In this document: in pieces, positions 343 to 3,714 of the stretch
How the letters are laid out: every line of letters begins with the position of its first letter
How positions within the stretch are numbered: position 1 is the first letter of the stretch
Assembly: GCF_900177405.1 (NCBI RefSeq)
Contig: NZ_LT840185.1
Coordinates: forward strand, 558,001 to 622,000
Source: Allosphingosinicella indica
GTDB lineage: Bacteria; Pseudomonadota; Alphaproteobacteria; Sphingomonadales; Sphingomonadaceae
Reading direction: 5' to 3'
Length of the DNA: 64,000 bases
Position numbers and translations under genes: made by a program
Notes under the pieces: model-generated
Database searches by the model: none
Seen by the model: only the letters and a program-made list of their open reading frames with translations
What the model was told of the DNA's origin: nothing

Positions 343-1284
343 TCAGGCGAACACCGTCCAGCCGGTGCGCTCGACCAGCGCCTCCAACGCGATCGCCCCG
401 GCGAGCGACGTCCCGGCGGCGTTGAGGCCGGGTGACCAGACGCAGACCGACGCCTCGCCCGGCACGATCGCGAGGATCCCGCCGCCGACGCCGCTCTTGC
501 CCGGCAGCCCCACGCGGAAAGCGAAATCGCCAGAATTGTCGTAATGGCCGCAGGTCAGCATCAGCGAATTGATGCGGCGGCTGCGCGACGGGGTGATCGG
601 CGCACGCTCGGTGACGGGATCGCGCCCATCGAAGGCGAGATGCAGCCCGGCGCGGGCAAGCTGGCGGCAGCTCATCGCCGTCGCGCATTGGCGGAAATAG
701 GCGGAGAGCACGTCCTCCACGGGATTGCGGAGATTGCCGAAGGCGGAGAGGAAATACGCAAGGCTGCGGTTGCGCGCGCCGGCCTCGCTCTCCGACGTGG
801 CGACCTCGTCGTCGGTGAGCACGGCGCCATCGTCGCCCGCCGAGCGGAGGTAGTCGAGCAGCGCGGCGACCGCTTCGTCGGGGCTGCCGTCGCCGATCAC
901 CGCATCGGTGACGGCAAGCGCACCCGCGTTGATCAGCGGGTTGCGCGGCTTGCCCTTCTCGACCTCGAGCTGGACGATCGAATTGAACGCCGATCCTGAC
1001 GGCTCGCGCCCCACCCGCTCCCACAGCATCGCCTGGATGCGGTTGAGCGCGAGGGCGAGCATGAACACCTTGGAGATGCTCTGGATCGAAAAGGCCTCGT
1101 CCGCATCGCCCGCGACGATCGCCTCGCCGCTCCGCGTTACGACCGCGATGCCGAATTTCATCGGATCGACGCGGGCGAGCGCGGGGATGTAGGACGCGAC
1201 CTTGCCCTCGCCGCGATGCGCCGCGGCGGCGGCCCATGCCGCCTCCACCGCTGCCTTCAAATCCACATCGCGCTTCAACATCAT
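343..1284 (-). CDS. glsA: Glutaminase
   Basis: Hydrolyses L-glutamine to glutamate and ammonia in the cytoplasm. The 313-residue product matches the usual length of bacterial glutaminases. The serine-lysine catalytic motif S-x-x-K is seen at residues 69-72 (QSISKVF), with the conserved ASYIP tyrosine near residue 32. Later come the family segments GSAFNSI, NPLINAGA, CGHYDNSGDFA and the glycine-rich LPGKSGVGGGI. The open frame extends 25 codons further upstream, but the ATG at 1284 has AGGGGA five bases in front and begins at the conserved region, so it is preferred; an adjacent second ATG is possible. It lies 46 bp downstream of the aspartate kinase-homoserine dehydrogenase gene on the same strand and may be read with it. 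Confidence 0.93.
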   Translation of the reverse strand: MMLKRDVDLKAAVEAAWAAAAAHRGEGKVASYIPALARVDPMKFGIAVVTRSGEAIVAGDADEAFSIQSISKVFMLALALNRIQAMLWERVGREPSGSAFNSIVQLEVEKGKPRNPLINAGALAVTDAVIGDGSPDEAVAALLDYLRSAGDDGAVLTDDEVATSESEAGARNRSLAYFLSAFGNLRNPVEDVLSAYFRQCATAMSCRQLARAGLHLAFDGRDPVTERAPITPSRSRRINSLMLTCGHYDNSGDFAFRVGLPGKSGVGGGILAIVPGEASVCVWSPGLNAAGTSLAGAIALEALVERTGWTVFA

Positions 1285-1330: not shown

Positions 1331-3052
1331 TCAAGCGCTGAGGCGGATCGGCTCTTCACCCAGCGCTTCGATATGGCGGCGGCGGACGTCCATCAGATCG
1401 GCGAACACCGCCGCCGCAGTCGGCCAGCGACCGGCGCCCTGGCCAAAGATCGTGTGGACGCGGCCCGCGCGGTCGGTGAGGCGGAAGCGGTTCTCAGCAC
1501 CGTTCGCGCCGGCAAGCGGATGCGCGAGGGGCAGCGATTCGATCGTGACCCCTGCGGCGAGCGTGCCATTGGGAAGCACGCGGCAACGGCCGACCTGCTT
1601 CAGCACCTCGCCGCGCGCCAACGCCGCTTGCGCCGTCTCGGGCGTGGTCGCGCGGAGCGACTGGCGCGGGATGCGCTCGGGCGCGAGCGCCGCGCCGAAA
1701 CAGGCGCGCGCGAGGATCGCGAGCTTGGCGGCAGCGTCATACCCGTCGACATCTGCCGAGGGATCGGCTTCGGCAAAGCCCAGCGCACGCGCCTCGATCA
1801 GCGCGCGATCGAGCGGCCAGCCCGCGGCGAGACGGCCGAAGAGATGGTTGGCGGTACCGTTCATCACCCCTTCGACCGCGACGAGACCCGGACCGGCGTG
1901 CAGCCGCGCGGCGGCCTCCAGCACGGGAGCACCGCCGCCGACCGCGCCCGAGAAGACGAGCTGGCTGCCGCCCGCCGTGGCCGCAGCGTGAAACGCGTCA
2001 TAATGCGCGGCGACGACCGCCTTGTTTGCGGTGACGACATGCGCGCCGCGGCGGAGCGCACGGGACAGTATGTCCGCGGCGTCGCTGCCGCCGATCAACT
2101 CGATCACCACGTCGGGGTCGCCGGCAAGCGCTTCGTCAAGATCATCGGTGAAACGCGCGGGATCACGACCGTCGAGATGGCGCACCAGTACTTTACCCAA
2201 CGCGAAGCGATCCGAATGACGGTCGATACATTCGGCAACGCCCGCCCCGACCGCGCCATGGCCTAGTAGCGCCACACGAAGCGGAGCCGTAAGCAGCGGC
2301 AGGCGGCGGATGGCCGGGCCGGCGGCGATCACCGTCGCCTCATGCTCGCCGAGCGCGGCGATCTCGATCGCTATGCCCGCCGCCTTCGCCGCCGCGATCG
2401 CCTTGGGCTGAATGAGCCCGGCGCTCGCTTCGGCGGCGGTGTCATAATCGATCGCGCCGTAGCGCTCGGCGCGCGGATTGACCGCGGGATCCTCGGCATA
2501 AACGCCATCGACATCCTTGAGCAGCCGCACCCTTTTCGCGCCCAGGGCCGCCGCGAAGAAGACCGCGGAAAGATCGGTGCCGCCGCGGCCGAGCGTCACC
2601 ACGCCATGTTCGGCATGGCCGGCGATAAAGCCGGGAACGACGATGGCCTCATGATCGGCGAGCTTCGCCGCCACCGCCGCCGCGTCGAGCGCGACAAGGT
2701 TCGAATCGAGCGGCGCGCCTTCGGCGACCAGCGCCATCTCGTGCGGATCGAGCGCGGCGGCGCGGACGCCGATCCGGCCCAGCGCCAGCGCCATCAGTGC
2801 GGCGGACCGCAGCTCGCCGATCCGCGCCAGCCGCGCAACCAGCGCGGGCGCCGCCGCGTCGCCGCCCACCCTTTCCGCCTGGGCGAACAGCGCATCGGTT
2901 TCTCCGGCGATCGCCGAGAGGACGAGCACGACCTTTTCGCCTGCCCGGATGTGGCGATAGGCTTCATCGGCGAGACATCGGTAATCGGCCTCGCTCTCCA
3001 GGACCGAGCTTCCGAACTTCAGGACGCAGACGTCCGCTTCGATGGACTGCAT
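1331..3052 (-). CDS. Aspartate kinase-homoserine dehydrogenase fusion lacking ACT domains
   Basis: A 573-residue bifunctional enzyme for the first and third steps from aspartate to homoserine (precursor of Met and Thr). Residues 1-248 are an amino-acid kinase domain: VLKFGSSV at 10-17, LGRGGTDLSA from 154 and KDVDGVYAEDP at 179-189. Residues 258 to the end are homoserine dehydrogenase: Rossmann motif GHGAVGAG at 264-271, TANKAVVA near 341, then MNGTANHLFGRL and GFAEADPSADVDGYDAAAK. ThrA/MetL-type fusions are about 810-820 residues and carry a regulatory ACT region between the halves; here the kinase runs straight into the Rossmann fold, so allosteric feedback by that route is absent. The ATG at 3052 is chosen over a TTG at 3097, which would lie against the upstream terminator. 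Control is probably by the leader-peptide attenuator in front of it. Confidence 0.9.
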   Translation of the reverse strand: MQSIEADVCVLKFGSSVLESEADYRCLADEAYRHIRAGEKVVLVLSAIAGETDALFAQAERVGGDAAAPALVARLARIGELRSAALMALALGRIGVRAAALDPHEMALVAEGAPLDSNLVALDAAAVAAKLADHEAIVVPGFIAGHAEHGVVTLGRGGTDLSAVFFAAALGAKRVRLLKDVDGVYAEDPAVNPRAERYGAIDYDTAAEASAGLIQPKAIAAAKAAGIAIEIAALGEHEATVIAAGPAIRRLPLLTAPLRVALLGHGAVGAGVAECIDRHSDRFALGKVLVRHLDGRDPARFTDDLDEALAGDPDVVIELIGGSDAADILSRALRRGAHVVTANKAVVAAHYDAFHAAATAGGSQLVFSGAVGGGAPVLEAAARLHAGPGLVAVEGVMNGTANHLFGRLAAGWPLDRALIEARALGFAEADPSADVDGYDAAAKLAILARACFGAALAPERIPRQSLRATTPETAQAALARGEVLKQVGRCRVLPNGTLAAGVTIESLPLAHPLAGANGAENRFRLTDRAGRVHTIFGQGAGRWPTAAAVFADLMDVRRRHIEALGEEPIRLSA

Positions 3053-3097
3053 GGATTTTCGCTTTCGATTGGCGCGGGGTACATCCCGCGCGGGCAA

Positions 3098-3131
3098 TAA
3101 AAAACCCGCTCGCCGGGGTCGGGGAGCGGGT
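3098..3131 (-). terminator. Intrinsic terminator acting as attenuator in front of the AK-HSD gene
   Basis: On the minus strand a perfect 8-bp stem (ACCCGCTC with GAGCGGGT, at 3131-3124 and 3111-3104), extended inside by three more pairs, is followed at once by six T. It lies 35 bp after the stop of the methionine-rich leader ORF and about 46 bp before the AK-HSD start codon, with no other gene ending here, so it can only act within that leader. An alternative pairing is possible between GCGGG at 3184-3180, just after the Met codons, and CCCGC at 3130-3126 in the terminator stem. That would be the antiterminator. Confidence 0.8.
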
Positions 3132-3165
3132 CGGTGGTTCGAGCTGGACCTGTCAGGTCAAAAAA

Positions 3166-3291
3166 TCAGCCGGCACCGCCCCGCATTCGCATGGCGGCCA
3201 TCATCATCATCGCGGCGAAAGGAGCACGGACGCAGGACGCCATGCCGTTACCGGCACCCGCATCCACTGCAATCCGAACCGCCATCGTCAT
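3166..3291 (-). CDS. Methionine-rich leader peptide (attenuator)
   Basis: A 41-codon ORF upstream of the AK-HSD gene. Nine residues are Met, and six of them fall within residues 28-36 (MMMMAAMRM; the four tandem ATG codons are at 3210-3199). An AAGGAGA ribosome site sits eight bases before the ATG. The stop is followed within 35 bp by the intrinsic terminator at 3131-3098. This is the layout of classical amino-acid attenuators (thr, his, trp, ilv leaders): a ribosome pausing on Met codons when charged Met-tRNA is scarce would free the antiterminator and let transcription reach the biosynthetic gene. An in-frame upstream ATG pair at 3339 would give 57 residues but has no good ribosome site. 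The peptide itself probably has no function after translation. The layout is seen; the mechanism is inferred. Confidence 0.75.
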   Translation of the reverse strand: MTMAVRIAVDAGAGNGMASCVRAPFAAMMMMAAMRMRGGAG

Positions 3292-3317
3292 CGCTCGCGA
3301 TCTCCTTCGCGCCGCAC

Positions 3318-3346
3318 TGATGGTGCGGAACGCCATCATCCGTCAA
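3318..3346 (-). promoter_or_regulatory. Candidate promoter for the Met leader transcript
   Basis: On the minus strand TTGACG (3346-3341) is followed after 17 bases by CCATCA (3323-3318). The -35 is good, the -10 poor. A start about seven bases further on would place the leader ATG (3291) roughly 20 nt into the RNA, which favours the 41-codon leader. The -35 overlaps the stop of the NIPSNAP gene. Weak evidence only. Confidence 0.3.
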
Positions 3347-3714
3347 CCGTCTTCACATAAGGTGAACGGCGCGGCGTCGGCTAAAAGCCCGTCTGGCACG
3401 GCGCTATCGCCGGGCAGCAGTGGGCGGAAGAAGAAGCGTTCGTAGCGGACGACGCAGCCGCTTTCGTCGCGGATCCTGTCCGCCTTCACGAACTGCGGAT
3501 CGACGCCGAAGAGGGCGCGATAGGCTTCATAGGCGGCGAAGCTCGGGAAGCTGAACAGCGCGAGCGCGCGATCGCTGGCACCTTCCGACGGCAGGAAATA
3601 TCCGTGATGCGTTCCCCCGTGGCGATCGACGAGATACATCCAGGCGCGCGCGAATTTCTCGAACGCGGCGGTCTTGGCGGGATCGATCCGGTAATCGACG
3701 AAACAGGTGATCAT
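3343..3714 (-). CDS. NIPSNAP-like small protein
   Basis: A 123-residue cytoplasmic protein with the ferredoxin-like (dimeric alpha-beta barrel) look of the NIPSNAP family. It opens MITCFVDYRIDPAKTAAFEKFARAW, where the residues after the first strand match the family helix. It then has THHGYFLPSEG, ALALFSFPSFAAYEAYRA and a C-terminal strand VVRYERFFFRP. No enzymatic role is established for bacterial members. The longer open frame is rejected: the ATG at 3714 has GGAGGAGA eight bases upstream and starts the conserved part. It is divergent from aroA, only 36 bp away, and its stop abuts the Met leader unit. Confidence 0.75.
   Translation of the reverse strand: MITCFVDYRIDPAKTAAFEKFARAWMYLVDRHGGTHHGYFLPSEGASDRALALFSFPSFAAYEAYRALFGVDPQFVKADRIRDESGCVVRYERFFFRPLLPGDSAVPDGLLADAAPFTLCEDG

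Follow-up and report, generated by a model that had tools for sequence, protein, structure and literature searches.

In Allosphingosinicella indica (Alphaproteobacteria, Sphingomonadales), the gene for a fused aspartate kinase-homoserine dehydrogenase (AK-HSD) is preceded by a short open reading frame (ORF) with a run of methionine codons and by an intrinsic terminator. The locus raises the question of whether this leader is an amino-acid attenuator, which amino acid it reads and where it came from. It lies in a 64,000-nucleotide stretch of contig NZ_LT840185.1 (positions 558,001 to 622,000), referred to here as the window, of a complete genome (G000; G and L labels denote the compared genomes and loci). 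The leader is probably a ribosome-mediated transcription attenuator, derived from the thrL-type leader of AK-HSD-thrB-thrC operons and re-targeted from Thr/Ile to Met. Its parts are listed below; all leader coordinates in the window are on the minus strand.

3341 to 3346, minus strand: -35-like TTGACG of a putative promoter
3302 to 3307, minus strand: Shine-Dalgarno sequence AAGGAG of the leader ORF
3166 to 3291, minus strand: leader ORF of 41 codons, MTMAVRIAVDAGAGNGMASCVRAPFAAMMMMAAMRMRGGAG, with its TGA stop at 3168-3166
3199 to 3210, minus strand: tandem run of four Met codons (28-31), where the ribosome would stall
3184 to 3192, minus strand: Met codons 34 (3192-3190) and 36 (3186-3184) with Arg 35 between them
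3175 to 3184, minus strand: antiterminator 5' arm GCGGGGCGGT, in the last leader codons
3126 to 3135, minus strand: antiterminator 3' arm ACCGACCCGC, common with the terminator 5' arm
3103 to 3132, minus strand: intrinsic terminator hairpin, 3132-3124 paired with 3111-3103
3104 to 3099, minus strand: run of six T after the hairpin, ending 46 nt upstream of the AK-HSD start codon
1331 to 3052, minus strand: AK-HSD gene, 573 amino acids, ATG at 3052 (Pfam AA_kinase, NAD_binding_3 and Homoserine_dh)

These features were read from the sequence, the antiterminator arms with the help of pairing, the hairpin with that of folding and the gene by its Pfam matches. The first-pass annotation of the window had described the 41-codon ORF, its ribosome site and six Met codons in nine, four of them in tandem, exactly to the base. 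An upstream start at 3339 would lengthen the frame to 57 codons but would lie inside the putative promoter; the Shine-Dalgarno stretch (3307-3289) is identical in relatives at just 8-12 of 19 positions. The perfect terminator with six T, placed by the annotation 46 bp before the enzyme start, was confirmed (3133-3095, -21.6 kcal/mol, z-score -6.19, with none of 200 shuffles equally good). The pairing of GCGGG with CCCGC which it had noticed turned out to be larger, as GCGGGGCGGT (3184-3175) and ACCGACCCGC (3135-3126) form a duplex of 9 pairs out of 10 with one mismatch. The sequence holds parts that an amino-acid attenuator requires, namely a leader ORF with a Shine-Dalgarno sequence and a run of relevant codons, followed by an intrinsic terminator. 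The attenuator architecture is well supported by this arrangement, by the mutually exclusive pairings and by the conserved structural parts.

A TTGAC[GC] motif is present 240-100 nt before the end of the leader stop codon in 40 of 53 leaders tabulated for comparison. The -10 element is weak (CATCAG near 3322-3317, read by eye), and a promoter scan gave nothing at its threshold. A riboswitch was rejected, as the Rfam search of the window gave no match at gathering score; an E-value search of 3000-3420 returned ten matches, all below gathering score and none to a SAM (S-adenosylmethionine), SAH (S-adenosylhomocysteine) or amino-acid leader family, the best being RF02883 (a Burkholderia sRNA; 22.2 against 40 bits, E 0.0057). 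A chance origin is ruled out by the terminator z-score, by conservation in relatives and by the rarity of ATGATGATGATG, which occurs once in the window, both strands counted, against an expected 0.00 (100 shuffles).

The relatives indicate where the leader came from. In E. coli, thrL carries Thr and Ile control codons. A leader ORF and a terminator stand at the same place in all 13 AK-HSD-bearing genomes among the 26 of the genus searched. A scan of genome contigs for AK-HSD returned 80 loci, 45 of which have both a terminator and a short ORF rich in Thr, Ile and Met (at least 7 of 12 residues). The 45 include L071, where the frame is broken, and L105, on a Phycisphaerales contig; the others belong to the Sphingomonadales (Sphingosinicella, Sphingomonas), the Maricaulaceae (Maricaulis, Oceanicaulis, Glycocaulis and others) and alphaproteobacterial metagenome-assembled genomes (MAGs). 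Thr/Ile control runs are present in 51 of the 53 tabulated leaders, which were taken from searched genomes as well as contig loci; TTIITITTTRKRGGSG (L034) and TTTITTITTTLTRGRGGTG (L045), at the leader ends, are examples of this thrL-like pattern. The gene order in relatives is AK-HSD-thrB-thrC, often with ilvD farther on. thrB lies downstream of 50 of the 51 Thr/Ile leaders, the remaining one (L049) being at a contig end, and downstream of neither of the two Met leaders (window and L080). The window shares with thrL-type systems a homologous leader and terminator before an orthologous AK-HSD gene; it lacks Thr/Ile control codons (0/12) and control of thrB/thrC. Since the orthologues keep the device with Thr/Ile codons, the window leader is almost certainly a thr-type attenuator by descent, that is, a thr-operon attenuator with changed codons.

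The first-pass annotation had expected orthologues to keep the Met run, and had named orthologues without it as refuting. The relatives keep the device with Thr/Ile codons instead, which counts against a conserved Met device; methionine stands as the best fit to the control codons of the window itself. The hairpin could also be the plain terminator of the gene upstream, with a Met-rich ORF arising by chance.

3714-3343, minus strand: NIPSNAP-type gene upstream of the leader, in the same direction, ending about 210 nt before the hairpin

Its orientation and distance suit this explanation, which is nevertheless barely credible, as ORF, pairing and hairpin occur in the same order in 53 Sphingomonadales and Maricaulaceae leaders and TTGACG lies directly upstream of the leader.

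Several loci define the edges of these counts. L071 (3750-5690, Sphingomonas rhizophila) has a Met-rich leader, STMGMFMTMMTTT, with the frame running past the usual stop and AK-HSD in several frames; it was excluded from the control-codon, duplex and promoter-motif counts. L014 (G084), from another family of the order, has a leader ending ...SIMTIIITTTMTTTTELGANGA upstream of AK-HSD and a different terminator stem sequence, and failed the terminator pattern; L073 has no leader or terminator. L105, L124, L149, L150 and L151 are outside the table of 53. On the Phycisphaerales MAG contig of L105 (574-720), AK-HSD is preceded by a terminator and by a short ORF that contains TTTTTTII, perhaps a thrL-like leader outside the Pseudomonadota.

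The replacement of Thr/Ile by Met is seen in the control codons. In 20 thrBC-linked Sphingomonadales leaders, Thr and Ile make up 151 of 240 control codons and Met 37, with at least one Met in 17 of the 20. The 12 window codons from -19 to -8, counted from the stop, hold no Thr/Ile, 5 Met and 5 Ala; at the frequency of the 20 leaders, zero Thr/Ile has p 6.8e-6. Of all 53 leaders, only the window has no Thr/Ile at -19 to -8, and only the window and L080 have at least four tandem Met. At codons -14 to -11, where the window reads MMMM, the 51 Thr/Ile leaders have T 122, I 46, M 26 and others 10 (n = 204), or T 117, I 44, M 25 and others 10 (n = 196) with identical leaders collapsed. These counts take related leaders as separate, and the last 24 residues differ in 51 of 53. 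Because Met is so frequent at the critical codons of Thr/Ile leaders, it seems that the relatives already use it as a third control codon, although related leaders are not independent. This fits the pathway, as homoserine is the common precursor of Thr, Ile and Met.

Ala is as frequent as Met in window codons -19 to -8, which might point to broader sensing, of a general slowing of translation through Met and Ala codons, or of formylmethionine or initiation capacity, since AUG links initiation and elongation of the leader to one amino acid. The Ala codons of the window, however, flank the Met run and do not fill -14 to -11, and the 12 codons of L080 include 6 Met and 2 Ala; broader sensing is accordingly judged quite improbable.

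Re-targeting to methionine is further supported by what was not found in either Met-leader genome (G000 and G459, the genome of L080), namely thrB and a SAM riboswitch at metX. For thrB of either type, nothing was found in either genome above a weak match which 25 of the 26 genus genomes also show, and the TIGR00938 kinase had no match in 13 genomes, G000 and G459 among them. The thrC adjacent to thrB is missing from both as well, and the place of thrB in relatives is taken in the window by another gene.

343 to 1284, minus strand: glutaminase gene, start codon uncertain

Both genomes keep a second thrC-like gene. The G000 copy scores 156 bits with TIGR00260 (cut-off 167) and 608 with NF006050 'threonine synthase' (cut-off 303), and the G459 copy has a TIGR00260 match of similar score.

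L132 1985-3214, minus strand: gene of G000 to which NF006050 gives the name threonine synthase, no homoserine kinase having been detected in that genome

The RF01725 (SAM-I/IV) and RF00162 (S-box) riboswitches sense SAM. One of them lies upstream of metX (or hsd-metX) in 17 of the 18 AK-HSD-bearing relatives in which metX was matched and inspected: RF01725 in G001, G003, G004, G005, G006, G009, G013, G014, G015, G020, G024 and G461, and RF00162 in G460, G462, G463, G472 and G518. In the remaining one, G021, only an 83-codon piece of metX was matched, with no RF01725. G460 (broken leader) is within the 17 and G519, G512 and G469 are outside the count; the metX match of G461 is split in two, and the metX matches of G003 and G024 contain TGA. 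No SAM riboswitch was found at metX-metB of G000 and G459, even at E up to 5, RF00162 having been sought there around metX and the leader. In G000, metX-metB (L131) immediately follows a gene for phenylalanine hydroxylase; metX and metB both score under their curated cut-offs (metX 293 bits, cut-off 296; metB, TIGR02080, 399 bits, cut-off 505). A link of the Met codons to the absence of RF01725 alone was considered and is not tight, as G460, G462 and G463 also lack RF01725 and carry RF00162 instead. Five genus genomes (L016, L017, L031, L032, L033) have another fused AK-HSD, of about 40% identity, as the gene in front of metX-metB, and a SAM-I/IV riboswitch precedes it.

The second Met leader comes from Sphingomonadales bacterium MAG12 (L080, genome G459). 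It ends ...STMTAMMMMMTAMAGGSG, retains 3 Thr and heads AK-HSD-metX-metB, with metX-metB in place of thrBC (metX: NF006449, 381 bits, cut-off 296; metB: TIGR02080, 555 bits, cut-off 505). Sensing of Met is supported by this gene order, as it is by the near-exclusive use of Met as the other residue at critical positions of Thr/Ile leaders. In AK-HSD protein trees of 43 rows and of 28 rows chosen from those 43 (L071 was removed before the 43-row tree, where its gene is kept in one piece as G460_L157), the window clusters with L034, G001, L041, L035 and L036 (support 100/98 and 99/98 in the two trees) and L080 lies in a sister branch (98/98 and 99/99). Forcing both into one clade costs 28 log-likelihood units in the 28-row tree (approximately unbiased test, p-AU 0.033). 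As window and L080 stand apart in the tree, the change from Thr/Ile to Met probably occurred twice. A wider proposal, for which we see even chances, is that the homoserine-branch leaders of the Sphingomonadales are three-way Thr/Ile/Met sensors whose codons follow the products that the operon still feeds, and that where thrB and the metX SAM riboswitch were lost the leader became a sensor of charged tRNA-Met instead of SAM, at least twice.

The proposed mechanism is as follows. With charged elongator tRNA-Met ample, the ribosome would pass the four Met codons, reach the stop codon and cover GCGGGGCGGT; ACCCGCTC could then form its pairs with GAGCGGGT, and the polymerase would stop at the six T. 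With Met scarce, the ribosome would stall at codons 28-31 and leave GCGGGGCGGT exposed to pair with ACCGACCCGC before the terminator 3' arm is complete, and the antiterminator so formed would allow transcription into AK-HSD and the making of homoserine. We infer that ribosomes stall on Met, that termination answers to stalling and that the gene losses drove the codon change; any response of the leader to methionine is likewise a prediction from sequence.

The first-pass annotation had proposed folding with and without a stalled ribosome. In the folding, the ribosome edge was assumed to lie 14 nt from the A-site codon, counted from its first base. RNA that stops within the terminator 3' arm (...GGCGAGC) has a fold of -12.4 kcal/mol when the ribosome stands at the stop codon; with the A site at codon -9 it folds as antiterminator at -33.9 kcal/mol, and it remains so farther upstream (-33.8 at -10 and -11). 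The four tandem Met are codons -14 to -11. On this RNA the antiterminator excludes the terminator; a ribosome at the stop keeps it from forming, and one at the control codons allows it. Of the bases of CCCGC, three or more take part in the duplex in 52 of 53 leaders, and four or more do so in 41. Among six leaders printed for the full-length fold, G006 shows a full switch, with the terminator at 0.00 from codon -12 upstream.

A rival explanation is that the leader is vestigial: thrBC were lost, the Thr/Ile codons decayed (ACC to GCC, ACG/ATC to ATG, slippage at the ATG repeat) and nothing useful is sensed. Met and Ala are indeed one step from Thr/Ile codons, the Met share of non-Thr/Ile control codons is equal (5/12 in the window, 37/89 in Thr/Ile leaders), and both Met lineages have long end branches. 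The structural parts, however, have been kept. Compared with its five nearest relatives, L041, L034, L035, L036 and G001, the window is identical at 10, 10, 10, 9 and 9 positions of 10 in the antiterminator 5' arm, and at 15/15 in the shared segment and 13/13 in the terminator 3' arm and T-run in all five, against just 4-10 of 30 in the spacer between stop and hairpin. L080 matches the window at 6/10, 15/15, 13/13 and 3/30, respectively. Because the arms are kept while the spacer varies, decay of the window leader appears unlikely. It can also be argued that an unregulated terminator before the sole homoserine dehydrogenase gene should be lost; Met makes up 26 of 36 non-Thr/Ile residues at the critical codons of Thr/Ile leaders, and the Met run occurs in two branches, one heading metX-metB. 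A vestigial leader is therefore unlikely, though it has more than a negligible chance.

Some results weigh against a working attenuator re-targeted to methionine. In full-length folds of the window leader, the terminator stands at 0.99-1.00 at all 22 ribosome positions printed, and stalling does not shift the fold off the terminator, so the switch has to depend on folding order. For L080 the full-length fold gives a mixed picture, with the terminator at 0.81 for the stop, 0.34 for the codon before it and 0.40-0.45 for -13 to -18. The duplex energy is modestly better than in shuffles (z-score -1.9 in the window, -1.1 in L080, median of the 53 -1.1), being below -1.5 in 21 of 53 leaders and above 0 in three. 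Window codons -19 to -8 hold as many Ala as Met, L080 has its 3 Thr, and Met limitation should slow leader initiation too. Since the gene named threonine synthase is kept in G000, the threonine branch may not be wholly lost there, and threonine auxotrophy is not claimed. As to the two origins, the grouping of L080 with L038/L039 is below full support (92/95; 87/89), p-AU lies only a little below 0.05, the question was put with the tree already known, and the two branches are long. L080 is from a MAG, which may be incomplete, and no close relative of the window with a Met leader was found.

The control of Met genes is usually ascribed to SAM riboswitches, repressors or T-boxes, and where amino-acid attenuators are concerned methionine has to our knowledge been an exception. 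As AUG is also the start codon of proteins, a shortage of Met affects both initiation and elongation of a leader. The leader peptides named in the literature, as far as excerpts cover it, are for Trp, Leu, Ile/Val, Thr, His, Phe, Ala and Cys. The window leader resembles the E. coli thr operon attenuator (thrL; Rfam Thr_leader RF00506) in its control-codon ORF before AK-HSD, its intrinsic terminator and its alternative pairing. It differs in its Met control codons, in having no thrBC downstream and in the absence of an ACT domain from the Pfam matches of its AK-HSD. RF00506, listed for Shewanella thrA in the portion of PMC2659441 available, had no match in the window.

The earlier statement that no Met leader-peptide attenuator has been described stands in part. 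One proposal of a methionine-dependent leader peptide was found in the literature searched, that of metL before metNIQ of Streptomyces lividans; according to the available sections of PMC8079986, it precedes a transport operon, has no tandem Met and, per its authors, no typical Rho-independent terminator. A literature search of mainly open-access papers found no Met-biosynthesis attenuator and no account of a leader peptide that changes its amino acid while keeping the RNA switch. Swaps between sensing systems, for example T-box and leader peptide, are described in the excerpted text of PMC2965389, and no conserved structure at Met operons of Actinobacteria is reported in that of PMC1262725. 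An alphaproteobacterial parallel is S. meliloti SEP5, a Thr-rich short ORF before an aspartate-related gene which is suggested to be a leader peptide; it differs in its Thr and Lys codons and in preceding an aspartate dehydrogenase gene (PMC10117765, in part). Like the RF01725 and RF00162 riboswitches at metX of relatives, the window leader would control the methionine branch at the RNA level, although it would read charged tRNA-Met and not SAM.

A working Met attenuator, if true, would mean that the dual role of AUG is no bar to such control. It would also be a natural case of a regulator whose signal changed through nothing but the replacement of codons, while the RNA switch stayed the same and neighbouring pathway genes were lost in parallel, and would place a tRNA-charging sensor where relatives have a SAM sensor. 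The two Met lineages make the idea of re-targeting testable.

The window AK-HSD is the sole Homoserine_dh match in G000. In a sample of 397 genomes of the family, 6 have this AK-HSD (E <= 1e-110), and among 392 relatives of G459, 11 have a match to the L080 protein (E <= 1e-100); 200 matching records in a plasmid collection are all below 60% identity. Upstream of the Steroidobacter-type AK-HSD (L081 3809-3881; L087 and L103 by eye), there is a conserved RNA which ends in a terminator and which in L081 matches RF00521 (SAM_alpha) below gathering score (27.9 against 36 bits, E 0.0002).

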